IMG/VR virus record: IMGVR_UViG_3300033571_014797
Span: 1-64,000 of that record
From: a virus
Strand: one strand, 5' to 3'
DNA: 64,000 nt
Shown here: piece by piece, positions 26,020 to 64,000 of the stretch
How the letters are laid out: every line of letters starts with the position of its first letter
Numbering within the stretch: position 1 is the stretch's first letter
Notes under the pieces: generated by a model
Told to the model about the DNA's origin: nothing
Database searches by the model: none
Seen by the model: only the letters and a program-made list of their open reading frames with translations
Translations under genes and position numbers: made by a program

Positions 26020-27369
26020 ATGGCTTATAATCTAGAAAGTTTTTGTCCTGAACCTTGGTCTCAAATTGAAATTAGTTTATCAGGAGATTACAAAATTTGT
26101 TGCCTTGCTCATTTCTCACAAGATTTTGGAATGGCAATGGACAAAAACGGAAATATAATGAATGTTTTAACGCACTCTTTTCAAGAAGCATTAAACAGTG
26201 AAACACACAAAGAACAACGATTAGATTATAGCAATAATGTTAAACCTCAAAGATGTAGAAATTGTTATGATTCAGAAGATAGTACACGTCGTCCTGAAAA
26301 ACCAGGCGGAATTAGTAAACGACAACGACTGTTAACTGAAACTGCAATTGAAATTCCAGAATATGTAACTATAGATACAGTTGATCAATTTACACAACCC
26401 GACGGCTCTGTTAATTCAAAAATTGTTAATTTACATTTGAGATTTGGAAATTTATGCAATTATAAATGCTTGATGTGTAGTCCTAATAGTAGTAATCTTT
26501 GGTATGATGATTGGGTAGCTATACAAAAACCCGGCATTAAAAAGAATGTGTTTAGCATGGGATATAAAAAATATGCTATTACTAAAGACGAACATGATCG
26601 AAGCAGAATGGATTTTCCTGCTTGGTGGGAAACAGATATTTGGTGGGAACGTTTTACTGAAATTATGCCCCAGTTACGTTACATATATTTTACTGGAGGC
26701 GAACCATTCTTAGTGCCTGCTTTAGGTAAATGTTTAGATATGTTAATTGAAGCAGACTTAGCTAAAGATATTACGTTAAGATTTGATACTAATTTGTCAG
26801 TGTTTAATAATAAAATTATATCAAGACTTGAAAAATTTAAAAAGATTATAATGTGCGTGAGTATTGACGAAACTGGCGAACGATACAATTTAGTACGTAA
26901 TGGCGGTGACTGGGATAATTTTATAAAGAATTTAAAAATTCTTAAATCTACTGATATGCATATCGAATATATTTCTGCTAGTATCGGTATAGCTACATTA
27001 TATGTTATTCCTAGAGTTTGTGAAGTCAGTAACGAATATAAAGTTAGAGCATTTTTTAGATTTTTAGAAGGACCTAAATGGCTAGATATTAGATATTTGC
27101 CTACTAGTGCTAAACAAGAAATAATTGAAAAATATCAAGAATTAGAAAAAAATAACACTAATCCCAATCATACTTTTTGGTATAAAAGCGTTTACAAATT
27201 GTTGAACAAATATATGGACGAATCTTTTACAAATTACGAGCACTTAAATGAATTTGTTAGAGTTATGGATATTCTAGATTCAACACGCAATTTAAATTGG
27301 CGCGAAACTTTGCCCGACACTTATGATCTACTAAAACGTCATTGCGGAAGTAAACTCATTAAACTATAA
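26020..27369 (+). CDS. radical SAM protein, twitch-domain type
   Basis: 449 residues. An N-terminal cysteine region (C9, C27-C28, C79, C82) precedes the CxxxCxxC cluster at C146, C150, C153, then Y-F-T-G-G-E-P for SAM binding. This inverted order (SPASM-like cysteines first) is that of twitch-domain radical SAM proteins common in aquatic phages. No further SPASM cysteines at the C-terminus. Substrate unknown. Single plus-strand gene between gp32 and the virion block, ended by a bidirectional terminator. Confidence 0.9.
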   Translation: MAYNLESFCPEPWSQIEISLSGDYKICCLAHFSQDFGMAMDKNGNIMNVLTHSFQEALNSETHKEQRLDYSNNVKPQRCRNCYDSEDSTRRPEKPGGISKRQRLLTETAIEIPEYVTIDTVDQFTQPDGSVNSKIVNLHLRFGNLCNYKCLMCSPNSSNLWYDDWVAIQKPGIKKNVFSMGYKKYAITKDEHDRSRMDFPAWWETDIWWERFTEIMPQLRYIYFTGGEPFLVPALGKCLDMLIEADLAKDITLRFDTNLSVFNNKIISRLEKFKKIIMCVSIDETGERYNLVRNGGDWDNFIKNLKILKSTDMHIEYISASIGIATLYVIPRVCEVSNEYKVRAFFRFLEGPKWLDIRYLPTSAKQEIIEKYQELEKNNTNPNHTFWYKSVYKLLNKYMDESFTNYEHLNEFVRVMDILDSTRNLNWRETLPDTYDLLKRHCGSKLIKL

Positions 27370-44552: not shown

Positions 44553-47500
44553 TTAACCTAGCGGTACAGCTGGAGCTAAGTTACCTGCTGCAATTTGACC
44601 AGTACCCTTAATTCTTACTGGAATGTAGATAAATTCTACAGCTTTAACTGGCTCGATAGCAACATCGATATGTAGTTCATTGCGATCAATAGTATCATTG
44701 GTATTGTTTGATCTGTCGCAAACTACTAAGTGATCATAAACACCTCTACGTGAAGTTACATCAATTAACAACTTATCAATTAATGATTTAGCAGTATCTC
44801 TTGTTAGCTTGTCATTTGGTTCAAATACCAATGGACGAACTAAAGTTTCAATCTGTCTACGTAGATAGCAAACTAATCTAGCAACATTAATTCTATCCAA
44901 TGCCGTAGCATCTGCTTGGCGTGTACGATTACCGTAATTAATGCGGCCTACACCTGGGAAGAATGAAATTGGATTAACTTGGTGTTGATATAACAAATCT
45001 CTTAGTTCTTGTGGAACCCCGGTTGGTACAAAGATGTTGTTATTTTGACGATTAATATAACCAATGCCCTTAACTGCATCCAATACACCTCTCTTGTTAC
45101 CAGCAGGTGCGAACCATAGTTCGCCAATCTGATCGCTGCGAATGAATGTACGAAGCATTACACTTGACATTGGAACAGCAATAGATCCCACACCGTCTAG
45201 CGAATCCATAATTGCAGTTCCTGGGTAGAAAACTGCGGTGTATGGATCACTTGTATTGAGCGCATCCTCACCTGTTAATCCAGTACCTAAACTATCTGTT
45301 AGATAGTTTTCAATGGTTGTTGTGTCAGTTGAAAGTCCCATTGGAACTTCACCAATAATAAATCCAGTATTCTTGCGATCATCGTTAAGAACTTTTAAGT
45401 TATCAAGCAATTCAGGATAACCTGGGCATACCAATAAGTTAAAGTCCTTGCCTTCTTCACGAAGTTCTGTGCTATTTGTCACTGCTTGTGCTAGTGCGCT
45501 TACAACAACATTTCTTACTGCTTGACGTCCAAAATATGGTACACCATTCCATTTTGCACCGCTATAAGATTGCCAAGTATCAGTTACAGCTGGAAGACTT
45601 AGTAGTGGGAAGTCATCTGCATTGAAATAATTCTTAACAAATTTTTTCACATTGTTACTGCTTCTGCGTGTATTGAACAACAAACAACCATTTGGATATA
45701 AATCTGGGTCAGGTGCATCTAGATCAACATAATCACTGGTTATTAAATCAGTAATCAATGGAATATCATCTAGATGAATATCTGAAGATCCGTCAGTGTC
45801 CCATCTAGCGTCCGCAAACAATATACCATCTTCTGTTGTTGAATCAGTAGTATCGAGTTGTACCCAAGTATCAGTACCGGTTACACTCTGCCAACGATAA
45901 ATTTTAGGATAGTTGTCATAATCACTAGTGTCGACCCACAAATCGCCGTATACTAAGGCATTACCTTGACTGTTAAGTGTAGGCTGACTAGCACTAATAA
46001 TTGGTCCATTAGGATCGGTTTGAGTTAAATTAAAGCCACGTGCATCAAGTGAAACATTAAGATAACCCTTCCATGTGTTGTTGTCATTAATCATAATGTC
46101 AACTTCTTGGCCACTGTAGAACCACAATGTACCATCTGTTGGAATAGCTGTAGGTTCACTTGCTTGTTGAATTATAGCAGGATTATAAGGTATAACCCAG
46201 TTACTTCCAGTTAGTGTACCATCATTATGCGGATCCTCAACGTTTATTAAGTTAGTAGTAATACCCATGTCAGCTAAAGGCGTACCATTAGTGTCATCTA
46301 AGAAAATTGTTCCGCCTGTTGTATGAGTAATTACAATTTTACCGTTTACAACATCAGCAGTTACTATTGGGTTTCCGTTTTGACTAATGTTTAATGCACT
46401 AATTGCTGCTGCAACACCTTCAACTGTGTTATTTGGACTTGCAGGTACTGTTACAGTATAAGTTGGGCTAGTACTCATTGATCCAATAAGTGTTGCTCTA
46501 ATTGTAAATGTTTCGGTCGCTACTAATGTTGGATTTACATTAGCTGCTGTAATAACTGTTGGGCCAGTTGTATATCTAGTATAAATTTGATATGAAACAT
46601 TACCACTGGCATCAGCATCATACTTTGTATACAATGTATCTTTTGCAATACCCAGGCCGCCTTTAGTAGGATCTAATGTATATAAAGCTTCAACATTGCC
46701 TGACAATAGTAAATTAGGAATTAAATCCCATGTATTAGTAACACTGTTTCTACGATAAGTTGTTAAATTAGCGCCATAATTATAATTGGTAGTTTTAATC
46801 CAAATACTACCAGTTGGTCTTGGCTCAGCATTGATGCTCTTCCAAGTTGGCACACTACTATGTTTGCTAAACTGTACGGCTGGTCCATAGAAAGTACCTT
46901 CTTCAATACCTAAATCGTCTAATACTGTGCCTGAAACTGCTTCAATGCTTACTGCACCATCTGTATTAGTACCATCGCTTTTTGAAGTTCTTTTAACGAA
47001 TAATGTAAATTTACCTGATAATTTAACTGCGCGAACACCAGTAATACCTGCGCCTGCATTTAATGCATTGATCTGCGCTGCTAATGCAGTGTCTGTTGTA
47101 GTAGCACCAATAGTAATAGTGGTATTGTTAATTTTAAATGCATCACCAGTGTTAAGTGTTGTTACGTTTGCATTAGTAGCAACTACTGGCGGCGCACATG
47201 TGTTTTCCCAATCAAGACTTCCTACAGGCACCCAATTATTCAAATAATTTTTTTCGTACATTGGATTACTGCTGACTGTGCCTACTATAGCAAACGATCC
47301 AACTGATCCATAAAGTGAAGTTGGAACATCATTAACATCTAGATAATCTGTATTTGTAACATAAGAAGGTTTAATTCTTGTAAATGCATTGTCAGCAAGG
47401 TTCCATCTGAAAACACCCCATGATGTTGTATTTGAATTCAACCATAATGTGCCACCAGCTGCATCTGCATTTGGTCTAACAGTTGTTGCTTCTAACTGAC

Positions 47501-47852
47501 TTAAATCAATATCAGCTCTCATGATATATGCACTGCTGATAATATCTAAACAGTTATGAGCTGCATGTAATCCATATTCGCCAAGCTCGCTTCCATAAAG
47601 TCTTGTTCCGCTAGCTGAAGTAGGAAAGTTTGGCATGCCATAATAGTTTACTAATTCTCTTTGACTACTAATATTGTAAATTTTACCTGCATTTGCTTTT
47701 GTTGTGCCAGGAGCAATATTTCCTGAAGCATTGGTCTTATCTTGTGCAGTTGCCATCAAGATAAAAGGCACTGTACCTACAGCAGTTGGAGCATAGTTGC
47801 TCTCATCAATTACTGTAATTTGTACGCCTGGTGAAACTAAACTGTTTGCCAT
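44553..47852 (-). CDS. gp18: contractile tail sheath protein gp18, greatly enlarged
   Basis: About 1,099 residues from the ATG at 47852 (T4 gp18 659). N-terminal S-P-G-V-Q-I-T-V-I-D-E-S (SPGVxxxxxD) and the C-terminal third with P-A-G-N-K-R-G, I-N-Y-G-N-R-T and the L-V-R-P-L-V-F-E-P-N-D region are standard sheath. Between about residues 130 and 680 lie insertions: at least four G-T/S/D-L/I-W modules and two flagellin-insertion-like segments (I-N-N-T-T-I-T-I-G; F-T-I-R-A-T-L). These are probably surface-exposed domains decorating the tail. Confidence 0.95.
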   Translation of the reverse strand: MANSLVSPGVQITVIDESNYAPTAVGTVPFILMATAQDKTNASGNIAPGTTKANAGKIYNISSQRELVNYYGMPNFPTSASGTRLYGSELGEYGLHAAHNCLDIISSAYIMRADIDLSQLEATTVRPNADAAGGTLWLNSNTTSWGVFRWNLADNAFTRIKPSYVTNTDYLDVNDVPTSLYGSVGSFAIVGTVSSNPMYEKNYLNNWVPVGSLDWENTCAPPVVATNANVTTLNTGDAFKINNTTITIGATTTDTALAAQINALNAGAGITGVRAVKLSGKFTLFVKRTSKSDGTNTDGAVSIEAVSGTVLDDLGIEEGTFYGPAVQFSKHSSVPTWKSINAEPRPTGSIWIKTTNYNYGANLTTYRRNSVTNTWDLIPNLLLSGNVEALYTLDPTKGGLGIAKDTLYTKYDADASGNVSYQIYTRYTTGPTVITAANVNPTLVATETFTIRATLIGSMSTSPTYTVTVPASPNNTVEGVAAAISALNISQNGNPIVTADVVNGKIVITHTTGGTIFLDDTNGTPLADMGITTNLINVEDPHNDGTLTGSNWVIPYNPAIIQQASEPTAIPTDGTLWFYSGQEVDIMINDNNTWKGYLNVSLDARGFNLTQTDPNGPIISASQPTLNSQGNALVYGDLWVDTSDYDNYPKIYRWQSVTGTDTWVQLDTTDSTTEDGILFADARWDTDGSSDIHLDDIPLITDLITSDYVDLDAPDPDLYPNGCLLFNTRRSSNNVKKFVKNYFNADDFPLLSLPAVTDTWQSYSGAKWNGVPYFGRQAVRNVVVSALAQAVTNSTELREEGKDFNLLVCPGYPELLDNLKVLNDDRKNTGFIIGEVPMGLSTDTTTIENYLTDSLGTGLTGEDALNTSDPYTAVFYPGTAIMDSLDGVGSIAVPMSSVMLRTFIRSDQIGELWFAPAGNKRGVLDAVKGIGYINRQNNNIFVPTGVPQELRDLLYQHQVNPISFFPGVGRINYGNRTRQADATALDRINVARLVCYLRRQIETLVRPLVFEPNDKLTRDTAKSLIDKLLIDVTSRRGVYDHLVVCDRSNNTNDTIDRNELHIDVAIEPVKAVEFIYIPVRIKGTGQIAAGNLAPAVPLG

Positions 47853-47881
47853 GATTATCATATCCTTTAGTAGGTTAGTAA

Positions 47882-49361: not shown

Positions 49362-50378
49362 TCAAAACATTGACTTTTTTGGCTTACATTTACCGCATTG
49401 CACATCACACTGTTGAAGTCTGCCTTTGTCATATGAATTTATATTCCAAGATTCTTTAACTTTTTTCATCCATTTTAAACAAGTTTCTAAATCATACATA
49501 TGTAAATTATTATTTTCTAAGAGCGTAGCAATTGGTTTATTGATTTTAAAATAATCATAATTAGAAGGACTATGCCCTAACCAACAACAAGGGAATACTT
49601 CACCATTAGCACTGATATAAATTGTTTTTCTATCTAATGCTTTGCATTTTGGTTCAATTTCAGTTTCATATTTGTCTGGAAATGGTATTTTATTATTATA
49701 AAACAATTTTGTATTGTAAAATTCAAAAACTGTTTTATATTTCTTATCAACTTTACCAATGTCATGTGACCAATTACCCTGTCTATCAAATACAGGTCCA
49801 TCGTTTCTGCCCTCATCTAATAATCGAAATTCTTTAAATCCTAACTTTTCTGACAGCAATTGACACTCATCGACTTGATGTTTATTATGATCAAATAAAA
49901 TCATCTTCCAAATTGCATATCCGCCTGCTTCAATGAAGTATGCAGCATTTTGTAAAATTTTATGAAAGTTAGTATCTTGTCTATATAAATGATGTGTATC
50001 TTCTAATCCGTCCAGGCAAAACATCATTTCAACGTTTAAAGATGCTAGAGTTGTCCAGAAATTTTTATCTCTAGCACTGGAATTTGAACTAATCAATATT
50101 CGAAGTTTTGGATTACTAGATCTAAAATATTCAATAATTTTTAGAGATTCGTTATTCATAACAAAATCTCCAAAATTTCCGTTAATTAAAATTAATTTTA
50201 ATTGTTTAATAAAATCTATAGAGAATCTTTTGATAATTAAATTCAAAGATAAATCTGTTTCATCATACCCTAGATTTTTAGGATATCCGTGAAAATTTCT
50301 TGCACATAAAGGACAACGAGCATTGCATCTAGAACTTAATTCTAGATGCAATTCTTCAATTTTGCTTAATTCAAACAT
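49362..50378 (-). CDS. radical SAM/SPASM protein
   Basis: 338 residues. CxxxCxxC at C18, C22, C25 close to the N-terminus, then a TIM-barrel-like region. The SAM-binding GGE is replaced by N-G-N-F-G-D. SPASM cysteines at the C-terminus: C-K-A-L (about 248), E-V-F-P-C-C-W (about 265) and C-D-V-Q-C-G-K-C (near 325-332). Peptide-modifying enzymes have this layout. ATTAAATA box lies 6 bases before the ATG. Located between neck and early genes; substrate unknown. Confidence 0.9.
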   Translation of the reverse strand: MFELSKIEELHLELSSRCNARCPLCARNFHGYPKNLGYDETDLSLNLIIKRFSIDFIKQLKLILINGNFGDFVMNNESLKIIEYFRSSNPKLRILISSNSSARDKNFWTTLASLNVEMMFCLDGLEDTHHLYRQDTNFHKILQNAAYFIEAGGYAIWKMILFDHNKHQVDECQLLSEKLGFKEFRLLDEGRNDGPVFDRQGNWSHDIGKVDKKYKTVFEFYNTKLFYNNKIPFPDKYETEIEPKCKALDRKTIYISANGEVFPCCWLGHSPSNYDYFKINKPIATLLENNNLHMYDLETCLKWMKKVKESWNINSYDKGRLQQCDVQCGKCKPKKSMF

Positions 50379-55463: not shown

Positions 55464-55540
55464 GGCTCCTAAGTCGAAATGGTTAAGACGCTGGCCTGTC
55501 ACGCCAGAGATAACGGGTTCGATCCCCGTAGGAGTCGCCA
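55464..55540 (+). tRNA. tRNA-Asp(GTC)
   Basis: Acceptor GGCTCCT/AGGAGTC, anticodon loop CTGTCAC, T-loop TTCGATC, encoded CCA. Confidence 0.93.
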
Positions 55541-55541
55541 C

Positions 55542-55617
55542 TCCAGGATAGTTCAGTCGGTAGAACATCAGACTCTGACTCTGAGTGTCGGTGGTTCGAA
55601 TCCATCTCCTGGATCCA
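55542..55617 (+). tRNA. tRNA-Gln(CTG)
   Basis: Acceptor TCCAGGA/TCCTGGA, anticodon stem TCAGA/TCTGA with loop CTCTGAC, T-loop TTCGAAT, encoded CCA; 76 nt. Confidence 0.9.
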
Positions 55618-55624
55618 AAAGTTT

Positions 55625-55701
55625 GGGGAAGTGCGCTGGAGAGGCTACAGCAGGGTCTGCAAAACCTTCGAATGTCGGTTCGAATCCGATCTTCCCCTCC
55701 A
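55625..55701 (+). tRNA. tRNA-Cys(GCA)
   Basis: Acceptor GGGGAAG/CTTCCCC, anticodon loop CTGCAAA, T-loop TTCGAAT, T discriminator, encoded CCA. Confidence 0.93.
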
Positions 55702-55708
55702 ATACAAT

Positions 55709-55784
55709 GGTCCGAATAACGGTTGGTTCCGTCACAAACAAGTCCAAATTATTTGGTCGGGGTTCGATTCCCTAAGGGCCGCCA
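55709..55784 (+). tRNA. degenerate tRNA-like sequence with possible TTA anticodon
   Basis: 76 nt, ending GCCA, with D-arm CGG-TTGGTT-CCG and T-loop TTCGATT. Acceptor GGTCC/GGGCC gives only 5 pairs; the best anticodon stem GTCCA/TGGTC leaves loop AATTATT, which lacks U33 and would present TTA (reading the stop UAA). Probably a decaying or unusual tRNA. Confidence 0.5.
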
Positions 55785-55790
55785 TTTAAT

Positions 55791-55866
55791 GCCGTCAGGG
55801 AGGTCTTGGCGATTTCACTGCTCTCATAAGGCAGCTAACTAGGTTCGATGCCTGGTGACGGCACCA
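55791..55866 (+). tRNA. tRNA-Met(CAT)
   Basis: Acceptor GCCGTCA/TGACGGC, anticodon loop CTCATAA, T-loop TTCGATG, encoded CCA. Elongator Met or Ile2 (lysidine) cannot be separated by eye. Confidence 0.9.
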
Positions 55867-55870
55867 ATAT

Positions 55871-55946
55871 CCTAACTTAGTGTTGTTGGTCAGCACGGCT
55901 GATTGTGGATCAGCAAGACTAGGTTCGAATCCTAGAGTTAGGACCA
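55871..55946 (+). tRNA. tRNA-His(GTG)
   Basis: Acceptor CCTAACT/AGTTAGG, anticodon stem GCTGA/TCAGC with loop TTGTGGA, encoded CCA. Position -1 is T, so the usual genomic G-1 is lacking. Confidence 0.9.
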
Positions 55947-55965
55947 TATAAAAAATATATACAGT

Positions 55966-56523
55966 ATGCAACTTTTAGAATTTATCGAAACAGTTAATTA
56001 TCCTAAAACAGACAAATATGATCTGGGTTACATACATGAATTTTATAACGACTTGTTTAGTCCTAGGCAACAAACTGTTAAAAATTTATTAGAGATAGGC
56101 ATGCAAAACGGTTATAGTATGAAACTATGGAGAGATTATTTTGTTAATGCTGACATATATGGGATAGATATTAACAAATGTGAATCATTAGCAAATCAAA
56201 GCCGAATACAACCTATATACAAAAGTGCCTATACTGATGAGGTAGTTGATAGTTTTGAAAAAAACTTTTTTGATGTCGTCATAGACGATGGCCCCCATAC
56301 ATTTCCTACTATGGAATTCTTTTGTAAAAATTATCTGCCTTTAGTAAAGCCAGGCGGCTTATTAATACTAGAAGATATTGTAGACATATCTTGGACTGAT
56401 AAATTTATGCAGATTTTTAATGGTTATGATGCTAAAGTCATACATATGGCAGGTTTAGCTAAAACAACTAAACTGCAACAAAAATGGGCGACGGGATTAG
56501 ATGTAATCGTAGTTCAAAAATAA
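55966..56523 (+). CDS. class I SAM-dependent methyltransferase
   Basis: 185 residues. Motif I L-L-E-I-G-M-Q-N-G-Y-S (about 42-52), Y-G-I-D-I-N strand 2, V-V-I-D-D-G-P-H motif IV and P-G-G-L-L-I-L-E-D motif V are those of Methyltransf_24/TylF-like O-methyltransferases. It lies between tRNA-His and tRNA-Tyr. Whether it modifies tRNA, sugar or a metabolite cannot be told; family tendency is small molecules or sugars. Confidence 0.82.
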   Translation: MQLLEFIETVNYPKTDKYDLGYIHEFYNDLFSPRQQTVKNLLEIGMQNGYSMKLWRDYFVNADIYGIDINKCESLANQSRIQPIYKSAYTDEVVDSFEKNFFDVVIDDGPHTFPTMEFFCKNYLPLVKPGGLLILEDIVDISWTDKFMQIFNGYDAKVIHMAGLAKTTKLQQKWATGLDVIVVQK

Positions 56524-56528
56524 AGTAA

Positions 56529-56616
56529 GGGAGAGCTGCTCTGACGGCGGAAGGGCACCGGACTGTAAATCCGGCACATAGAAACTCAGTTGGTTCGAAT
56601 CCAACCTCTCCCACCA
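56529..56616 (+). tRNA. tRNA-Tyr(GTA)
   Basis: Acceptor GGGAGAG/CTCTCCC, anticodon stem CCGGA/TCCGG with loop CTGTAAA, long variable arm as for bacterial class II Tyr tRNA, encoded CCA; 88 nt. Confidence 0.93.
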
Positions 56617-56625
56617 AATAATGTG

Positions 56626-56653
56626 TTGACACTTACCTTAAAGGTGTTAATGT
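56626..56653 (+). promoter_or_regulatory. sigma-70-like promoter before the structured RNA
   Basis: TTGACA (56626-56631), 16-base spacer, TAATGT (56648-56653). Same spacing as the early promoters. Would start transcription about 15 bases before the inverted-repeat element. Confidence 0.6.
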
Positions 56654-56672
56654 AAGCATGTAAGCAAAATAA

Positions 56673-56815
56673 AATGTTATTTGAAAACGTAGCAAACGGT
56701 TGTGTACCAGATACTGGCAGGGCAGACAGAGGTTGCTGTTGAAATATACAGTGTACGGGTGAAATCCTGGAGGCCATGAGGGATAAACAGGTTTGTTGCG
56801 TTTTCAAATAACATT
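56673..56815 (+). ncRNA. candidate structured RNA closed by a 25-bp inverted repeat
   Basis: Arms 56673-56697 and 56791-56815 pair over about 25 bp (AATGTTATTTGAAAACG and partner, two mismatches) enclosing 93 nt. Inside, CCAG-ATA-CTGG and other GC-rich short stems are visible. No credible ORF on the plus strand. It ends 1 base before tRNA-Lys, preceded by its own promoter. No known RNA family recognised. Confidence 0.55.
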
Positions 56816-56816
56816 T

Positions 56817-56892
56817 GGACCCTTAGCTCAGTTGGTAGAGCATCGGACTTTTAATCCGTTGGTCGCCGGTTCGAACCCGGCAGGGTCTACCA
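56817..56892 (+). tRNA. tRNA-Lys(TTT)
   Basis: Acceptor GGACCCT/AGGGTCT, anticodon loop CTTTTAA, T-loop TTCGAAC, encoded CCA. Confidence 0.93.
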
Positions 56893-56898
56893 AAGAAT

Positions 56899-56973
56899 GG
56901 GGACAGTAGTGGGTGTACGGATCTCCCTTGCACGGAGATTGTCTATAGGGTTCGATTCCCTGGGTCTCCACCA
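56899..56973 (+). tRNA. tRNA-Ala(TGC)
   Basis: Acceptor GGGGACA/GGTCTCC with one mismatch and one G-T, anticodon stem TCTCC/GGAGA with loop CTTGCAC, T-loop TTCGATT, encoded CCA. Second Ala(TGC) gene of the window. Confidence 0.85.
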
Positions 56974-56978
56974 TACAC

Positions 56979-56986
56979 TATAAATA
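56979..56986 (+). promoter_or_regulatory. late promoter box TATAAATA, leaderless arrangement
   Basis: CTATAAATATTACT then ATG at 56992: 5 bases between exact late core and start codon of the SOD gene. Confidence 0.65.
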
Positions 56987-56991
56987 TTACT

Positions 56992-57558
56992 ATGCAAGAC
57001 ATTCGTCATTTTATCGACATCTTAGAATCTAAAAATAGACCAAGCAAGTTATTTTTGGAGAAATTGCCTTACAAAGCATCAGAGCTCGCACCTGTGCTTA
57101 GTAAAGAAAATATAGATTATCATTACAACGTACTAAGCAATGGATATGTAAATCGATATAACGAAGGCGAAGGAGATCCAGATTTTAATTATGGCGGAGC
57201 TATGCTACACAATATATTTTGGCAGCAGTTGCAAGCACCAAAAGGATCAAATCGTCCTATAGGTATAGTGAAAGAACTAATAGAAGACAAATTTAAGTCA
57301 TATGATTCATTTGTTGAACAAATGATTACCAGTGCAATGTCTATACAAGGTTCTGGTTGGGTATATTTGTCTAAATCAGGTGACATAAAGACTATACCAA
57401 ATCAAAATTATAAAACAGATATACTGATGCCCTTAGACATGTGGGAGCATAGTTTTATGGATTATATTCCAGCTAAGGATGCTAAGAAAAAATACATTAC
57501 TGCTATGTTACGAATAGTCAATTGGGCAGTTATAAACGATAGACTCAATACAAAATAA
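56992..57558 (+). CDS. sod: iron/manganese superoxide dismutase with capsid-targeting-like N-terminus
   Basis: 188 residues. SOD motifs in order: L-P-Y-K-A-S-E-L-A-P-V-L (25-36), H44 in Y-H-Y-N-V-L, G-G-A-M-L-H-N-I-F-W with the second His (about 73), G-S-G-W (about 120) and D-M-W-E-H with the Asp/His ligands (about 148-152). The metal ligands are kept, so activity is plausible. The first 13 residues (M-Q-D-I-R-H-F-I-D-I-L-E-S) are extra and look like a prohead-targeting peptide with I-L-E cleavage site. Driven by a leaderless-type late promoter, unlike an early metabolic gene. Confidence 0.88.
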   Translation: MQDIRHFIDILESKNRPSKLFLEKLPYKASELAPVLSKENIDYHYNVLSNGYVNRYNEGEGDPDFNYGGAMLHNIFWQQLQAPKGSNRPIGIVKELIEDKFKSYDSFVEQMITSAMSIQGSGWVYLSKSGDIKTIPNQNYKTDILMPLDMWEHSFMDYIPAKDAKKKYITAMLRIVNWAVINDRLNTK

Positions 57559-57571
57559 ATTATCGTTGGAT

Positions 57572-57737
57572 CTAGTTACAGGCTTAGGGAAATACCCTTA
57601 CAAAAACCCTGTCGCAATACTAGACTGCACACGGAACAACACGTGAGTTCCAGCAAGTTTTTATCAGGGACGACGTAGGGTTAGATTACTCCCGCCCTTG
57701 GAAGGCGGGCAACCCGGGGCAGCGCCGGGGTTCCTGA
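57572..57737 (+). ncRNA. candidate multi-stem structured RNA
   Basis: Nested stems: CTAGT/ACTAG (57572-57576, 57619-57623), ACAGG/CCTGT (57578-57582, 57608-57612), AGGG/CCCT inside; then GGAAC/GTTCC (57633-57651). Next TCAGG/CCTGA (57664-57668, 57733-57737) encloses GGGTT/AACCC (57678-57682, 57711-57715) around CCCGCC/GGCGGG (57691-57709). AACCC can also pair with GGGTT at 57728-57732, giving two exclusive forms. No ORF. Much GC-richer than surroundings. Confidence 0.55.
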
Positions 57738-57746
57738 CCAATTAAT

Positions 57747-57820
57747 GCGAGTGTGATGTAATGGTAGCATTACGGTCTCCAAAACCGTCCGTTAGGGTTC
57801 AAATCCTTACACTCGTGCCA
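57747..57820 (+). tRNA. tRNA-Trp(CCA)
   Basis: Acceptor GCGAGTG/CACTCGT, anticodon loop CTCCAAA, T-loop TTCAAAT, encoded CCA. Confidence 0.93.
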
Positions 57821-57825
57821 AATTT

Positions 57826-57899
57826 GCTTCTGTAGCTCAAAGGTAGAGCACTCGACTGATAATCGAGAGACGTTGGATCGATACCATCTAGAAGCACCA
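57826..57899 (+). tRNA. tRNA-Ile(GAT)
   Basis: Acceptor GCTTCTG/TAGAAGC, anticodon stem TCGA/TCGA with loop CTGATAA, encoded CCA. T-loop is ATCGATA, with A where T54 is usual; shared with tRNA-Phe here. Confidence 0.9.
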
Positions 57900-57906
57900 A
57901 GTTTAT

Positions 57907-57984
57907 TCGCAGGTAGTCATCCAGGTGATGGCGCTCGGCTGTTAACCGAGATTGAGATTGGTTCGAGTCCAATCCTGCGAGCCA
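57907..57984 (+). tRNA. tRNA-Asn(GTT)
   Basis: Acceptor TCGCAGG/CCTGCGA, anticodon stem CTCGG/CCGAG with loop CTGTTAA, T-loop TTCGAGT, encoded CCA. Confidence 0.93.
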
Positions 57985-57990
57985 TTTTAC

Positions 57991-58065
57991 GGAGCGTTCG
58001 TCTATCGGCTAGGACGCTGGCCTTTCAAGCCGGCAAGAGGGGTTCGATTCCCCTACGCTCTACCA
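57991..58065 (+). tRNA. tRNA-Glu(TTC)
   Basis: Acceptor GGAGCGT/ACGCTCT, anticodon loop CTTTCAA, T-loop TTCGATT, encoded CCA. Confidence 0.93.
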
Positions 58066-58161
58066 AAGTTGCTGGACTACTATCCATTGGTTTCTAGATC
58101 TGATGGTGTGCTTACCAGTAGAGGATCCCGATCACCTCTATAAAAACGCGGATGAATTTAT

Positions 58162-58237
58162 GGACCGTTAGCTGAGTTGGTTTTAGCAGGAGACTCTTAA
58201 TCTCTAGACGGGGGTTCGAATCCCTCACGGTCTACCA
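58162..58237 (+). tRNA. tRNA-Lys(CTT)
   Basis: Acceptor GGACCGT/ACGGTCT, anticodon stem GGAGA/TCTCT with loop CTCTTAA, T-loop TTCGAAT, encoded CCA. Acceptor close to tRNA-Lys(TTT), suggesting duplication. The 96 bases before it (58066-58161) hold nothing I recognise. Confidence 0.9.
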
Positions 58238-58242
58238 TTAAA

Positions 58243-58270
58243 TTGCATTTTTAACAAAAGGATGTATACT
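58243..58270 (+). promoter_or_regulatory. possible sigma-70-like promoter
   Basis: TTGCAT (58243-58248), 16-base spacer, TATACT (58265-58270), 7 bases before the ATG at 58278; nearly leaderless. Confidence 0.45.
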
Positions 58271-58277
58271 ATAAAAT

Positions 58278-58736
58278 ATGAAAAAAATATTAGTTTTATT
58301 ATTTGCGCTATTGCCTAATATAGCCCAAGCTGATACTATTATTGGATTCAAAGGCAAAAATAACGCCTTTGATCATCAAGCATTTGAAAAATATGCAGCT
58401 AAACGAAAACTAACACCTGTAGTTTTAAGTGCATTTGATTCTAAAAATGCCATGCATATTATTCGTATTAATTCTACATATGAATTATATGGTTATAGTT
58501 TAGGCGCTGCTAGCGTTGCACAGACCATGCGATTAATAGAAAAAGAAAAATTACACATGCCTAGATACGTTATTACAGTTGGTGCATACAGAACAACCAA
58601 TGTTGATTTCAACAAATACAATGTTAAGTTTGACAATTATTTTGATGCAAGCGGAGCTGGTACAAAAAGTCCAGGAAAACATTTAGGTGTTAGTCATAGC
58701 GATATTATGAGATATGTAGTTGATACATTCTACTAG
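58278..58736 (+). CDS. secreted alpha/beta-hydrolase-like protein
   Basis: 152 residues. Signal peptide 1-18 (K-K-I-L-V-L-L-F-A-L-L-P-N-I-A-Q-A). A nucleophile elbow G-Y-S-L-G (G-x-S-x-G, about residues 72-76) and a C-terminal H in G-V-S-H-S-D suggest Ser and His of a hydrolase; the acid is unclear. Shorter than most hydrolases (about 130 mature residues). Periplasmic; could act on lipids or the envelope, but no lysis family is recognised. Confidence 0.65.
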   Translation: MKKILVLLFALLPNIAQADTIIGFKGKNNAFDHQAFEKYAAKRKLTPVVLSAFDSKNAMHIIRINSTYELYGYSLGAASVAQTMRLIEKEKLHMPRYVITVGAYRTTNVDFNKYNVKFDNYFDASGAGTKSPGKHLGVSHSDIMRYVVDTFY

Positions 58737-58744
58737 GAGATTAC

Positions 58745-58915
58745 ATGAGTAAAAGTAATAAACATGCAGGACAAATCAACATGCGTGGCAAGAAGTACAA
58801 GCTCATGCGATGTGGATGTTGTGAATGCATTGACTTTAGAGACAAGTTTACTGCAAAAGAACATGCAAAAGAAATTAAGGCCGCTTTGGTGAAGGAGGTA
58901 CTCACGTCTGCCTGA
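58745..58915 (+). CDS. 56-residue Cys-rich small protein overlapping tRNA-Phe
   Basis: ATG at 58745 behind TAGGAG. Basic N-terminus (M-S-K-S-N-K-H-A-G-Q), C-G-C-C-E-C cluster at residues 23-28 that could bind a metal, helical Lys/Ala-rich end. The last 11 codons and the stop lie inside the tRNA-Phe gene (58880-58955), so the message cannot be intact after tRNA processing. Real coding is likely given the site and composition; the tail may be chance. Confidence 0.6.
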   Translation: MSKSNKHAGQINMRGKKYKLMRCGCCECIDFRDKFTAKEHAKEIKAALVKEVLTSA

Positions 58916-58955
58916 AGAGCAGAAGAACCTGGATCGATACCGGGAGGCGGCACCA
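58880..58955 (+). tRNA. tRNA-Phe(GAA)
   Basis: Acceptor GCCGCTT/AGGCGGC, anticodon stem TCTGC/GCAGA with loop CTGAAGA, T-loop ATCGATA, encoded CCA. Its 5' half overlaps the small protein gene upstream by 36 nt. Confidence 0.9.
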
Positions 58956-58960
58956 TTAAT

Positions 58961-59037
58961 GCATCTGTAGCTCAATGGATTAGAGCAGCGGTCTTCGAAA
59001 CCGTAGGTTGGGAGTTCGAATCTCTCCAGGTGCACCA
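58961..59037 (+). tRNA. tRNA-Arg(TCG)
   Basis: Acceptor GCATCTG/CAGGTGC, anticodon stem CGGT/ACCG with loop CTTCGAA, T-loop TTCGAAT, encoded CCA. Confidence 0.93.
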
Positions 59038-59055
59038 ATTATAAGTAGTATCAAC

Positions 59056-59595
59056 ATGCTTTGTTATAAACCTTTAAAATATCAAAATCATCAATTGGTA
59101 AGTAAAAAACTTTATGATTTTACTGTTAATCAAACAAATGTTTTACAGAGAGCTATCTTTTGGAACAATATAGATTGTGATCAAGTGTTAGCAGCTATTC
59201 CTGAATTACAAGAAGTTCTAGATCAGTACCAGTTGAATAAGCCTTATCAAACTGCTTTGCTTTATAGTGGCACTATTCAAGGTAACATACATATCGACGG
59301 CGGCAAAGACGTTAGAATACTATGGCCAGTTTGCAATACTGAAGGATCGAAAACTAAATGGTTTGATGTCGATCCAGAATTTATTGTACCACAAAAACAA
59401 AAGAATGCAGGATGGATAGTAACTAAACAAGAAGGTCATCGAGTAATTGATGAATTAGAAATTACTGAACCAATATTCTTCAATTCGGGTATACCTCATG
59501 GTATCTATTGCAATCCTAAATATAATAGAAATCAACCGAGAATAACATTTGTTATGTTATTCTATCCAAGAATAAATTACTTGCTTGAAGAATAA
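59056..59595 (+). CDS. 2OG-Fe(II) oxygenase/cupin-like protein
   Basis: 179 residues from the ATG at 59056; a GTG frame from 59008 runs through tRNA-Arg and is rejected. H-I-D (about residue 79) followed by V-R-I-L-W-P-V-C-N, then P-H-G-I (about 153) and R-I-T-F-V fit the HxD...H plus Arg layout of 2-oxoglutarate oxygenases. The pattern is looser than in the gene at 15243. Substrate unknown; lies within the tRNA cluster. Confidence 0.6.
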   Translation: MLCYKPLKYQNHQLVSKKLYDFTVNQTNVLQRAIFWNNIDCDQVLAAIPELQEVLDQYQLNKPYQTALLYSGTIQGNIHIDGGKDVRILWPVCNTEGSKTKWFDVDPEFIVPQKQKNAGWIVTKQEGHRVIDELEITEPIFFNSGIPHGIYCNPKYNRNQPRITFVMLFYPRINYLLEE

Positions 59596-59624
59596 AAAGA
59601 ATATATAGTAGGTGAATGAAATAT

Positions 59625-59700
59625 GCGGGATTAGCTCAGTGGTAGTAGCGTCTGCTTTACACGCAGAATGTCGGGAGTTCGACCCTCTCATCCCGCACCA
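59625..59700 (+). tRNA. tRNA-Val(TAC)
   Basis: Acceptor GCGGGAT/ATCCCGC, anticodon stem TCTGC/GCAGA with loop TTTACAC, T-loop TTCGACC, encoded CCA. Confidence 0.93.
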
Positions 59701-59705
59701 TATAT

Positions 59706-59787
59706 GCCAAGGTGGCTCAGTGGCGACAGCACCGCTCTTGTAAGGCGGGATACAACACCGGGGGTTCGAGTCCCTCCCTTGGCACCA
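59706..59787 (+). tRNA. tRNA-Thr(TGT)
   Basis: Acceptor GCCAAGG/CCTTGGC, anticodon stem CCGCT/GGCGG with loop CTTGTAA, T-loop TTCGAGT, encoded CCA. Variable region is longer than usual for Thr (82 nt in total). Confidence 0.9.
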
Positions 59788-59831
59788 TACTTTGGTAATT
59801 AGTAATTTACTTTTTAATTGTAAGTTACGAA

Positions 59832-59839
59832 CATAAATA
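59832..59839 (+). promoter_or_regulatory. late promoter box CATAAATA, leaderless arrangement
   Basis: CATAAATACAAT then ATG at 59844: 4 bases between. Confidence 0.55.
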
Positions 59840-59843
59840 CAAT

Positions 59844-60557
59844 ATGAATTATCAACTACATTACGATAAACTAATAGATCGTGCAAAACATAGAGTCTTA
59901 GAAAGTTATTCAGAAAGACATCATATAATTCCGCGATGCATGGGCGGGTCTGATGACCTAGACAATCTAGTCAATTTAACTCCTGAAGAACATTATGTTG
60001 CACATCAATTATTAGTTAAAATATTTCCTAACAATGCTAAGTTAATCAATGCTGCTATAATGATGATCCCAAATCGACCTTCCAATAAATTGTATGGTTG
60101 GCTAAGAAAAAAATTTGCTGAAAATCAGAGCATAAATCAAACTGGATCAGGTAATTCTCAATACGGAACAAGATGGGTTCATAACATCGATTTAAAAGAA
60201 AGTAAAAAGATAAAAATTACAGACCCATTGCCTAATGGTTGGCTGGAAGGCCGTAAGATTAATTTTTATCTAAATATCGTAAATTGTAAAAACTGTAATA
60301 AACAGTTTGAACGAATTTCATTAGAAATATATTGTTCTGAAATTTGCAAGCGACACGATAGATCAGATGCAATTAAACTCATTGACATTAAATTAGATGA
60401 AATGCTTGAATACTATTCAAATGTAAGATCAATAGATAAAACATTAAAACATTTTGGAGTAAAAGGTTTATCTGACACTGGAAGAGCCGGTAATAGATAT
60501 TTTTCTAGCATACTTAAAGAAAAGAATATATACGTTAGACCAAGAACAAAAAAGTAA
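59844..60557 (+). CDS. HNH homing-type endonuclease
   Basis: 237 residues. HNH core E-R-H-H-I-I-P-R-C-M-G-G ... N-L-V-N-L-T-P-E-E-H-Y-V-A-H (about 25-55), typical of phage homing nucleases. A second CxxC...CxxxC zinc motif (C-K-N-C ... C-S-E-I-C) and a C-terminal helical region (about 170-230), perhaps a DNA-recognition arm, follow. Inserted between the two related tRNA-Thr genes, consistent with mobile behaviour. Confidence 0.88.
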   Translation: MNYQLHYDKLIDRAKHRVLESYSERHHIIPRCMGGSDDLDNLVNLTPEEHYVAHQLLVKIFPNNAKLINAAIMMIPNRPSNKLYGWLRKKFAENQSINQTGSGNSQYGTRWVHNIDLKESKKIKITDPLPNGWLEGRKINFYLNIVNCKNCNKQFERISLEIYCSEICKRHDRSDAIKLIDIKLDEMLEYYSNVRSIDKTLKHFGVKGLSDTGRAGNRYFSSILKEKNIYVRPRTKK

Positions 60558-60558
60558 G

Positions 60559-60639
60559 CCTGGGTGGCTCAGCGGCGACAGCAACGCTCTAGTAAGGCGT
60601 CATTACACAACGGGGGTTCGAGTCCCTCCCCAGGCACCA
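60559..60639 (+). tRNA. tRNA-Thr(AGT)
   Basis: Acceptor GCCTGGG/CCCAGGC, anticodon stem ACGCT/GGCGT with loop CTAGTAA, T-loop TTCGAGT, encoded CCA. Strongly similar to tRNA-Thr(TGT) at 59706, with the same long variable region: a duplicate. A34 is rare in bacterial Thr tRNAs. Confidence 0.85.
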
Positions 60640-60697
60640 TCCAACAATATCTCTTACGCTTAAAAGAAATTTGCGCACCAGAGAGGTCACTTATTTT

Positions 60698-60772
60698 TGC
60701 GGGGTAGAGCATTGGTAGCTCGCTAGCCTCATAAGCTAGAGGTAGGGTGTTCGATTCACTCCCCCGCAACCA
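60698..60772 (+). tRNA. initiator-like tRNA-Met(CAT)
   Basis: TGCGGGGTAGAGC...GCTC resembles bacterial initiator tRNA: D-stem GAGC/GCTC has the A11-U24 pair. Position 1-72 is T-A (weak pair instead of the C-A mismatch), and the anticodon stem CTAGC/GCTAG lacks the three G-C pairs of initiators. Loop CTCATAA, encoded CCA. Confidence 0.85.
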
Positions 60773-61157: not shown

Positions 61158-61598
61158 ATGGAATACGCGATAATATTCATAGCATGGACGTTTGTTATCT
61201 ATTGGATGCATAGATTAGCACATATTATACCATGGATATCTAAAATTCACCATGACCATCATCGATATGTTATAAAAAATCACGTAACCTGGCACTGGTC
61301 AAATCTGTTTTTATATAACGATACATGGCTTAGTACTTTGGATTTATGGATAACAGAAGTTATTCCTACTTTAATTATGAGTTTCTTTTTTGGTTGGTGG
61401 TTGTTTATCGCATATTATTTGTGGGCTGCGTTTATTCAAGAGCGCATTGAACACAATGATAATTTTAATTTTTATCCATTAATAACCAGCGGACGTTGGC
61501 ATATGATACATCACAAAAATGCTCAATATAATTATGGGATTTTTATTCCCGTTTGGGACATTGTTTTTAAAACTAAAAAAGACATGGGTGCTGTATGA
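61158..61598 (+). CDS. fatty acid hydroxylase/sterol desaturase superfamily protein
   Basis: 146 residues. Three histidine boxes for the di-iron centre: H18-x-x-x-H22, H31-H-D-H-H35, and H115-M-I-H-H119, with H99 between. Hydrophobic segments at 3-17, 64-78 and 79-96 make it an integral membrane protein. It is about half the length of cellular members, a minimal core. It begins a three-gene operon; its TGA overlaps the radical SAM start (ATGA). The family hydroxylates lipids or carotenoids; the true substrate here is unknown. Confidence 0.88.
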   Translation: MEYAIIFIAWTFVIYWMHRLAHIIPWISKIHHDHHRYVIKNHVTWHWSNLFLYNDTWLSTLDLWITEVIPTLIMSFFFGWWLFIAYYLWAAFIQERIEHNDNFNFYPLITSGRWHMIHHKNAQYNYGIFIPVWDIVFKTKKDMGAV

Positions 61599-62572
61599 AA
61601 ACGCCAGTCAAAGTTGAGCAACCTTTTCCTATATTCCACATCTATTGGACGTTAACCGATTTTTGTAATTACAAATGCAATTACTGTGTGCCTAGATCAT
61701 ATGCAGGCGATTATCATTTTAATCGTAAACCAGGGTATCCTTCAGACGAACAAATTATACAGTTTTTAGATAATTTGGGTCCAATGCATGTTAAAGATAG
61801 ATTTTTATGTGTTAAAATAAGTGGTGGCGAACCAACCATACATCCAATGTTACCTTATATCATTAATCGATTAAAAGAATATAAACATAAAAATATTTGT
61901 ATTATTACAAACGGTTCTAGAAATGTAAAATATTGGCAATCAATATTGCCTATCGATGAAGTAATAATTAGCTTACATCCTGAATACGTGGATATGGAAA
62001 AAATAAATGAATTAAGTTGGGCCATAATTGATTCAAAAACAAAGCTTAATTATAATTTAGCTGTAGATCCCAAACATTGGGACGCAACTGTAAAAATGTA
62101 TGATAAGCTAGATGATAGATTAAAACATCTAGTAAAACCAAAAGTTTTATTTGAAAAAGACAATCCTCATCATCCCAACTATCATTATACAACAGAACAA
62201 TTGACTTGGATGAATAATATCATTAATCAATCTTCGTTTACTAAATCTCCGTTAACATCATCATTTCCTGGATTTTATCCAGCTAGTACATTGTATTTTG
62301 ATGATGGATCTCAGATTTCAACCAGTCAGTATGCTACAATTAGTCTTAATCAATGGCATAAGATGCGGGGGTGGGATTGTCATGTTGCCAGTCAAGCAAT
62401 CAAAGTTCAATATTCAGGAAAAGTATTCGCTGGTATTTGCATGGCTAAACAATTAGGTACTATAGACAATTTTAAATTGGATTATGAGCCACTAAGTTGT
62501 ACATTTACTACTTGTAAAGATTTACCGGACCTTGCGGTTTCAAAATATATACATGAAGAAAGATTACTGTGA
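61595..62572 (+). CDS. radical SAM protein in the hydroxylase/PP-loop operon
   Basis: 325 residues. CxxxCxxC at C24, C28, C31, then K-I-S-G-G-E-P for SAM binding and I-I-T-N-G-S strand. Late cysteines (W-D-C-H, I-C-M-A, L-S-C-T-F-T-T-C) could hold one auxiliary cluster. Overlaps both neighbours by 4 bases, so strictly coupled to the membrane hydroxylase and the PP-loop enzyme. Most likely acts on the same substrate. Confidence 0.9.
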   Translation: MKTPVKVEQPFPIFHIYWTLTDFCNYKCNYCVPRSYAGDYHFNRKPGYPSDEQIIQFLDNLGPMHVKDRFLCVKISGGEPTIHPMLPYIINRLKEYKHKNICIITNGSRNVKYWQSILPIDEVIISLHPEYVDMEKINELSWAIIDSKTKLNYNLAVDPKHWDATVKMYDKLDDRLKHLVKPKVLFEKDNPHHPNYHYTTEQLTWMNNIINQSSFTKSPLTSSFPGFYPASTLYFDDGSQISTSQYATISLNQWHKMRGWDCHVASQAIKVQYSGKVFAGICMAKQLGTIDNFKLDYEPLSCTFTTCKDLPDLAVSKYIHEERLL

Positions 62573-63390
62573 CTACCGAAAATAATTGGATTAAACATAA
62601 TTTATTTGATCGTTTACATGATCAATCTTTAGACTTATCGGTTGAATTAAATCCTAACCCCTTTGTGAAAATGAGCTTTCATGAAGCAGCTGATATAACT
62701 GCTCAACGCATATATGAGAAACATAAAAATATATTTCTAAGTTTTAGCGGCGGCGCTGATAGCGATTATGTGTTTCATGTTTTTCAACGTAATAATATCC
62801 CATTTAAACCCATACTAGTAAAAACTACCGGCAATGTTGTTGAATTAGGTTATGCATATCATACGTGCAAGAAGTTTAACATTGAACCTATTATAATAGA
62901 AGTTGATGATAAAAAATACTTAGACGTCTATTATAGAAACGTCATAGCAAAATTAAGCGGAATAGGAATTTGTGCAGTTCCTGGAGTTATTGCCTGCGAA
63001 TATGCTCGCGACAACAACGGTATTTTAGTTATTGGCGAACATATGATAGACCATGACGGCAATAACATATATGCAGGTGTAAACGAATGGGACTATTATA
63101 ATGAAGTTTTAGTTGGTGATGAGTTTAATATACCATTTTTTAATTATACAACAGATTTAACGTATGCAATGTGGAACAGTATATATTCAGAAGAAATTAG
63201 CGAGTGGAAATGGAAATTATATGGTTTAGATTATAGACCTGTTATTGAATACAGATTTGATTATAATTTTATCACATATAAGAAAAAAATGTTTATGCTG
63301 CGTCGATCTAACCCAAATCCTAAATTTGTCTTAGGTAGTAAAGAGGAAATGTTATCTCTATTAGACAATTTTGCGAATAAATATACTTAA
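62569..63390 (+). CDS. PP-loop ATP pyrophosphatase (adenine nucleotide alpha-hydrolase-like)
   Basis: 273 residues, GTG start overlapping the preceding TGA. The PP-loop S-F-S-G-G-A-D-S is at about 58-65, followed by an alternating Rossmann-like fold (P-I-L-V-K-T; I-I-I-E-V-D-D). Enzymes of this class adenylate a carboxylate or carbonyl (asparagine synthetase, QueC, tRNA thiolases, PAPS reductase). No zinc ribbon or glutaminase domain is visible. Probably activates a substrate with AMP in the same pathway as the two enzymes upstream. Confidence 0.85.
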   Translation: MTTENNWIKHNLFDRLHDQSLDLSVELNPNPFVKMSFHEAADITAQRIYEKHKNIFLSFSGGADSDYVFHVFQRNNIPFKPILVKTTGNVVELGYAYHTCKKFNIEPIIIEVDDKKYLDVYYRNVIAKLSGIGICAVPGVIACEYARDNNGILVIGEHMIDHDGNNIYAGVNEWDYYNEVLVGDEFNIPFFNYTTDLTYAMWNSIYSEEISEWKWKLYGLDYRPVIEYRFDYNFITYKKKMFMLRRSNPNPKFVLGSKEEMLSLLDNFANKYT

Positions 63391-63405: not shown

Positions 63406-63864
63406 ATGCCAATTTCTAGCCCTTTTACTGTTAGACAAATAGTAATTAAAAAACCAGGCGACAACTGGAATGGCATTTTTGTCGGCGATTTGAGGAAATC
63501 AGTGAGTTCTACTCCCGATCCTAGAGATCTTGAAGGCTCAGAAAACACATTTACATTAAACAAATTTAAAGAAGAATGGTCTAAACAATCAAAATTTAGT
63601 TGGTCTAGTTATAAATGGGATCGAGAATATGTTAGTGAAAATACACTAATATTTTATTTCTATTTTGATGATCAAACAACTGCGGTAGATTTTTATAATT
63701 GGCGCAATACTATTGTTAAACCTGTTCCTGATATCACTAAATTTAAACCTGAAGAAGGATTTGTTGACAAACTTGAAGATTTAGACCCAAGCAATAGACC
63801 TGCAAGATACTTGTTTGAGTGGGAAATAGTAGACAGCGCAGGAAATCCGGTTCCAACTAATTAA
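63406..63864 (+). CDS. hypothetical protein, first of a tandem paralogous pair
   Basis: 152 residues. AAAGGAA before the ATG. N-terminal F-T-V-R-Q-I-V-I-K-K, then N-W-N-G-I-F, then T-P-D-P-R-D-L-E-G; the next gene repeats this order. Beta-rich and aromatic, ending with E-W-E-I-V-D-S-A-G. Not recognised; could be a virion/tail protein. It follows the PP-loop gene by 15 bases, so may be in the same transcript. Confidence 0.6.
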   Translation: MPISSPFTVRQIVIKKPGDNWNGIFVGDLRKSVSSTPDPRDLEGSENTFTLNKFKEEWSKQSKFSWSSYKWDREYVSENTLIFYFYFDDQTTAVDFYNWRNTIVKPVPDITKFKPEEGFVDKLEDLDPSNRPARYLFEWEIVDSAGNPVPTN

Positions 63865-63875
63865 GGATAGCAATA

Positions 63876-64000
63876 ATGCCCTATAATTTTACTGTAAAGA
63901 AAATTTTTACCAAATATGATGACGACAATTGGAGCGGCCTTGCATTACGTAAATTTGGTAGAGTGGATACTACTCCTGATCCTAGAGACGAAGAAGGCAG
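63876..64000 (+). CDS. hypothetical protein, second tandem paralogue (cut by window end)
   Basis: Begins at the ATG at 63876 behind AAGGAT; 41 codons are visible. M-P-Y-N-F-T-V-K-K-I-F ... N-W-S-G-L-A ... T-T-P-D-P-R-D-E-E-G mirrors the N-terminus of the preceding protein, so the pair arose by tandem duplication. The rest lies outside the window. Confidence 0.7.
   Translation, partial: MPYNFTVKKIFTKYDDDNWSGLALRKFGRVDTTPDPRDEEG

Follow-up and report, generated by a model that had tools for sequence, protein, structure and literature searches.

The recurring unit among relatives of the locus described here is a pair of PP-loop genes that bracket an iron enzyme (PPL-A–iron enzyme–PPL-B), a pattern that is our main result and was absent from the sequence-only reading. 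The three catalytic genes on which that reading centred encode a membrane hydroxylase (FAH), a radical SAM enzyme (RSAM) and a PP-loop ATP pyrophosphatase (PPL-B). We propose, with a probability of roughly one half, that they form one variant of a modular cassette for biosynthesis or tailoring, sited in the tail-fibre (host-recognition) island of aquatic T4-like phages. The core of such a cassette would be at least one PP-loop synthetase of new families together with an exchangeable iron-dependent oxidising enzyme, which in this phage would be a minimal di-iron membrane hydroxylase. A radical SAM gene would have been added between the hydroxylase and the PP-loop gene with the 4-base overlaps kept, so that all three genes would be translated together. 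PPL-A to PPL-E, f31 and B12-rSAM are working labels, and for the last of these Pfam gave no confirmation of the B12 domain.

The window analysed comprises bases 1-64000 of a 66,144-bp IMG/VR virus record. Judged by its gene content, the virus is a T4-like myovirus, because the record encodes sheath, tail tube, terminase, UvsX, ssDNA-binding protein, DnaB-type helicase and head-tail connector genes. The tail sheath protein (44553-47861, 1102 aa) has a PHROG sheath-family match along its length, and is long relative to the T4 sheath. FAH (61158-61598, 146 aa, ATG start), RSAM (61595-62572, 325 aa, ATG start) and PPL-B (62569-63390, 273 aa, GTG start) all lie on the + strand, and consecutive genes share four bases from stop to start, as had been described: ATGA at 61595-61598 and GTGA at 62569-62572. 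These overlaps support the proposed co-translation of the three genes. Open reading frame starts were picked mechanically; the GTG start of PPL-B is backed by the aligned N-terminus MxTxNNW. Downstream of PPL-B is a small gene of the f47 family (63406-63864, + strand, no Pfam match), followed by a second copy that starts at 63876, and genes of this family also adjoin PP-loop genes in relatives. Past the end of the window, the record continues with a TctC-like gene (record 64299-65261, equivalent to L013:4299-5261) and the second PP-loop gene, PPL-A, which starts at record position 65258. The T4 late-promoter motif TATAAATA shows no enrichment, and FAH has none before it. Directly upstream of the cassette, 19 tRNA genes (55464-60772, including tRNA-Thr agt) form an array in which small ORFs and a gene for an HNH homing endonuclease (59844-60557) are interspersed.

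FAH matches PF04116 (FA_hydroxylase) over its whole length (E=1e-14, 55.5 bits; gathering cut-off 31), as do all 46 aligned viral members (E<=0.001). Its motifs (HX3H, HX2HH, EHN and HX2HH, all within 61158-61598 on the + strand) agree with the His boxes that define the superfamily (HX3-4H, HX2-3HH, HX2-3HH), and nine histidines (H18, H22, H31, H34, H35, H99, H115, H118 and H119) are invariant in 46 viral relatives. The Pfam match and these residues support the assignment of the 146-aa protein to the membrane di-iron fatty-acid-hydroxylase family. Enzymes of this family are integral membrane proteins that hydroxylate lipid-like molecules within the membrane, with O2 and a pair of iron atoms. 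FAH-family ORFs of more than 300 aa (L023, L028 and L031) were considered as fusions, and look over-extended when judged by eye. Two contigs of one Nitrososphaerales MAG (L171 and L172), on which FAH and PP-loop genes occur together, are probably viral DNA that was binned there in error.

For PPL-B, a search with the single sequence gave no significant Pfam match. From its sequence and predicted structure, PPL-B belongs to the PP-loop enzymes, in a family for which Pfam has no model, because the SGGxDS loop (S60-G-G-x-D64-S65) is invariant in 48 relatives, as are K214 and R223, the 48-member profile matches NAD synthetase (3p52) and TtuA (E ~1.6e-5), and the model (pLDDT 96.7) lies nearest to LarE, TtuA and NadE. 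The earlier class assignment of the 273-aa protein is thereby borne out. PP-loop enzymes adenylate an oxygen and then swap it for nitrogen or sulfur. Full-length matches to PPL-B are confined to uncharacterised proteins of uncultured phages. PPL-B was rejected as a QueC: the window protein has no significant match, only two of the 48 members match at E<=0.01, and the Zn-binding CxxC Cys cluster is absent from the alignment.

RSAM matches PF04055 (Radical_SAM; E=9e-13, 49.2 bits; cut-off 29.5) and carries a CX3CX2C motif (C24, C28, C31) and a C-terminal four-Cys motif (C262, C282, C302, C307). All seven Cys are invariant in 43 viral relatives, and with the Pfam match they uphold the radical SAM assignment of the 325-aa protein. 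By sequence, the four C-terminal Cys follow the arrangement known from enzymes that carry an auxiliary iron-sulfur cluster, and RSAM is a twitch-type radical SAM enzyme. Twitch enzymes take hydrogen from peptides, sugars or nucleotides. The predicted structure (pLDDT 88) has MoaA, BlsE, anSME and SkfB as its nearest folds. Assignments to individual NCBIfam equivalogs were rejected for MoaA (49.2 vs a cut-off of 284, although MoaA is the nearest fold), QueE (37.5 vs 206.1) and prokaryotic viperin (40.9 vs 180), and the best PADLOC viperin match spans only residues 16-109. Three further ORFs in the window have radical SAM-type Cys motifs (3215-4339, +; 26020-27369, +; 49362-50378, -), the last with distant relatives in Campylobacter phages. 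Campylobacter phage CP21 encodes distant radical SAM genes, and the stretch of it that was inspected lacks a cassette of this kind.

The catalytic His, Cys and PP-loop residues are therefore conserved among homologues of all three enzymes (46 FAH, 43 RSAM and 48 PPL-B). The gene neighbourhoods divide the trio: FAH and the PP-loop genes recur together, and RSAM is found apart from both. Alignment-guided scans of IMG/VR, from each of which the best 80 candidates were taken, gathered 102 FAH loci, or 89 distinct FAH genes after duplicate removal, with kinship among loci only partly removed from the counts. A PP-loop gene lies within 6 kb of 86 of the 89 distinct genes and is adjacent on the same strand in 54. 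The gene immediately downstream of FAH is PPL-B in 37 and PPL-D in 15 of the 102 loci. Most FAH–PPL-B junctions overlap; in the closest relatives the two genes overlap directly, and FAH adjoins PPL-B without RSAM in most of the nine first-round relatives. Since viral relatives have both genes overlapping and in the same order, the arrangement exceeds chance. The same PP-loop profiles gave no match in 80 phage loci chosen by a radical SAM motif. These profiles were built from the FAH and PPL-B loci themselves, and a generic PP-loop motif test was therefore added, which was positive in 94/102 FAH loci, 11/80 control phage loci (somewhat shorter, median 9.7 vs 12.4 kb) and 0/54 cellular FAH loci. 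FAH and PPL-B distances also correlate (r=0.64, 44 pairs). The suggested link between membrane oxidation and adenylation gains support from this conserved neighbourhood. On the other side of the balance, FAH is missing from 27 of 75 distinct PPL-B loci.

RSAM is distributed differently. Its family is very abundant in IMG/VR, and single-protein scans of that database returned no close relative. None was found in nine related viral records, a weak negative, as this whole-record search had no positive control. Among the best 80 RSAM relatives, none has a hydroxylase gene nearby and only two have a nearby PP-loop relative; among the matches listed, RSAM stands between FAH and PPL-B in the window only. 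The conserved unit is thus the hydroxylase (or another iron enzyme) with PP-loop enzymes, without RSAM, which occupies this slot in one instance and may be a short-lived insertion there. A second recurring radical SAM/PP-loop neighbourhood is seen in L286, L279, L262 and L297, where several radical SAM genes accompany PP-loop genes of another family (SGGADSALL, C-terminal CxxC).

The enzyme in the middle of the bracket is exchangeable. Counted over 80 distinct PPL-B genes, the nearest upstream neighbour is FAH for 37, PPL-A for 10 and a Rieske oxygenase for six, and more rarely a 2OG-like gene (two), a ~500-aa radical SAM protein (one) or RSAM (one, the window). Complete PPL-A–X–PPL-B brackets have FAH (25), nothing (10), a Rieske protein (5), FAH plus a 2OG-like gene (2) or the ~500-aa radical SAM protein (1) at X. 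The Rieske slot proteins match PF00355 and retain CxH, CxxH and D143/H146/H153, and active sites are conserved in both the Rieske and PPL-A families. The place of RSAM is taken in L026 and L027 by the 2OG-like gene, with a 4-nt overlap with FAH in both; its protein has an HxD...H...RK signature, as is usual for 2OG-Fe(II) oxygenases, and no Pfam match, so that the name is motif-based. These slot enzymes are unrelated; their common feature is iron-dependent C-H oxidation or radical chemistry. Brackets with a Rieske, 2OG-like or large radical SAM protein in the slot occur in L026, L027, L122, L132, L133, L138, L141 and L153, and several PP-loop families (A-E) recur in these loci.

Many FAH/PP-loop loci adjoin genes for Gly-rich fibres, with the cassettes close downstream. 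Relatives lie beside such fibre genes, some with f27 (thought to be a neck gene). This placement would fit the hypervariable host-recognition cluster of pelagimyophages, in which radical SAM cassettes lie between VrlC and gp14 (PMC7029224); the same paper reports a desaturase in the freshwater genomes. Searches for FAH, PPL-A, PPL-B and PPL-D among the cultured phages of INPHARED gave no match (E<=1e-5). Two sets of bacterial genomes, each from a single phylum (399 and 297 genomes), gave PPL-B matches only to short stretches around the PP-loop, and in the 399 genomes FAH gave weak matches, mostly inside longer ORFs. We found no account of the FAH/PP-loop unit in phages in the open-access literature searched. 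TctC-like periplasmic receptor genes accompany many cassettes, with entries at record 64299-65261, L017:9906-10802 (PF03401), L136:8181-9143 and L145:8874-10370, the L145 locus encoding a TctA permease (PF01970, E=5e-125); some phages may thus code for the greater part of a tripartite tricarboxylate transporter. TctA was previously noted in a SUP05 virus contig (PMC4164917). Near FAH in relatives are also an AMP-binding ligase (PF00501, L015:10036-11505) and a small acyl-carrier-protein-like protein (L007:6697-6951), which hint at carrier-bound acyl chemistry.

For the substrate, product, timing and purpose of the cassette, we infer the following scheme. The hydroxylase would insert oxygen into an unactivated C-H bond of a membrane-held substrate, most likely an acyl chain. 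The PP-loop enzyme would adenylate an oxygen of a carboxylate, amide or carbonyl group; displacement of AMP by a nitrogen or sulfur nucleophile would then give a C–N or C–S bond. The radical SAM enzyme might carry out an additional C-H modification. The product, possibly the lipid, quinone-like or peptide-derived molecule suggested previously, would alter the envelope of the infected cell or the virion surface. An acyl substrate is favoured because desaturase genes (PF00487) adjoin FAH in the PPL-D lineage, and weakened because Rieske proteins replace FAH in PPL-B brackets; a single lipid substrate is hard to reconcile with the exchange of a membrane hydroxylase for a soluble Rieske protein.

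The desaturases also speak for a different explanation, in which FAH and nearby desaturases alter the acyl chains of the host membrane during infection, while the PP-loop and radical SAM genes merely share the variable island with them and have no related function. PF00487 desaturases stand beside FAH in many loci, and acyl-CoA desaturases have been reported in phages (PMC7678222; PMC7029224). We consider this unlikely, as the FAH–PP-loop link is near universal, with overlapping genes, and the PPL-A/PPL-B lineage keeps the pair with no desaturase near FAH. The reading of the trio as a single dedicated pathway, with three required sequential steps on one lipid, quinone-like or peptide-derived molecule, draws on the 4-base overlaps, which make one translational unit, and on the intact active sites. 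It is decidedly unlikely given that, among the matches listed, other loci with FAH next to PPL-B have no radical SAM gene between them, that FAH and PPL-B overlap directly in the closest relatives, and that no FAH lies near the best 80 RSAM relatives.

A location close downstream of the fibre genes would also suit a cassette that modifies virion proteins (the Gly-rich tail fibres) post-translationally, with the PP-loop and slot enzymes as alternative side-chain tailors, and RSAM is nearest to MoaA and to SPASM/twitch enzymes, among which peptide substrates are common. Members of the FA_hydroxylase family are integral membrane proteins with lipid-like substrates, and this possibility is accordingly very unlikely. 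Finally, phages can encode QueE together with QueC, a radical SAM enzyme and a PP-loop enzyme respectively, which raises the question of 7-deazaguanine DNA or RNA base synthesis; RSAM has weak sub-threshold matches to QueE models, as do two of the 48 PPL-B members to QueC. With an RSAM score of 37.5 against the QueE cut-off of 206, no QueC Cys motif in PPL-B, and no joint conservation of RSAM with PPL-B, we regard this explanation as extremely improbable. The preferred reading, a modular cassette with an exchangeable iron enzyme, has to contend with the fact that proximity is not shared chemistry, and that hypervariable islands gather unrelated genes.

Auxiliary genes of phages are usually catalogued singly; here there is a fixed partnership between a PP-loop synthetase and a swappable iron oxidase, found in dozens of diverse uncultured phages, with overlapping genes, and in none of the cultured phage records searched. 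This partnership points to dedicated phage biosynthetic chemistry. It is possible, though short of an even chance, that these loci represent an unrecognised class of modular cassettes, in which virus-specific PP-loop synthetases and interchangeable iron enzymes (di-iron hydroxylase, Rieske oxygenase, 2OG-like oxygenase, radical SAM) make diversified molecules that alter the envelope or virion surface in host-recognition competition. The partnership offers a testable handle on the role of enzyme-rich tail-fibre islands in aquatic phages, and suggests that certain phage genes annotated as PAPS reductase or asparagine synthase may have another identity.

As to known systems, the loci may be comparable with the pelagimyophage host recognition cluster (PMC7029224), a hypervariable tail-fibre island of T4-like aquatic phages that contains radical SAM cassettes; the available sections of that account do not mention the FAH/PP-loop unit or the PP-loop/iron-enzyme brackets. 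PPL-B shares the SGGxDS loop and a Rossmann-like ATP domain with NadE, TtuA, LarE, GuaA and carbapenam synthetase, whereas its TM-scores with N-type ATP pyrophosphatase structures are only 0.26-0.48 among the matches listed, it has neither a glutaminase domain nor a CxxC metal motif, and its C-terminal half is its own, with the invariant K214 and R223. RSAM is similar to MoaA and SPASM-twitch enzymes in its CX3CX2C motif and four C-terminal auxiliary Cys, and differs in falling below the cut-offs of the NCBIfam models among the matches listed. It shares its Cys pattern with the large and abundant CNYKCxYCxP radical SAM family of aquatic phages, with identities of <=27% to the aligned viral relatives, and its context beside FAH and PPL-B is unusual. 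FAH is a typical member of the PF04116 superfamily in its score above the gathering cut-off, full His-box set and hydrophobic core, and is unlike it in having only ~146 aa and no extra domain. Its identity to the nearest cellular relatives, apart from the two contigs of one archaeal MAG, is <=34%, and unlike them it is constantly paired with PP-loop genes.
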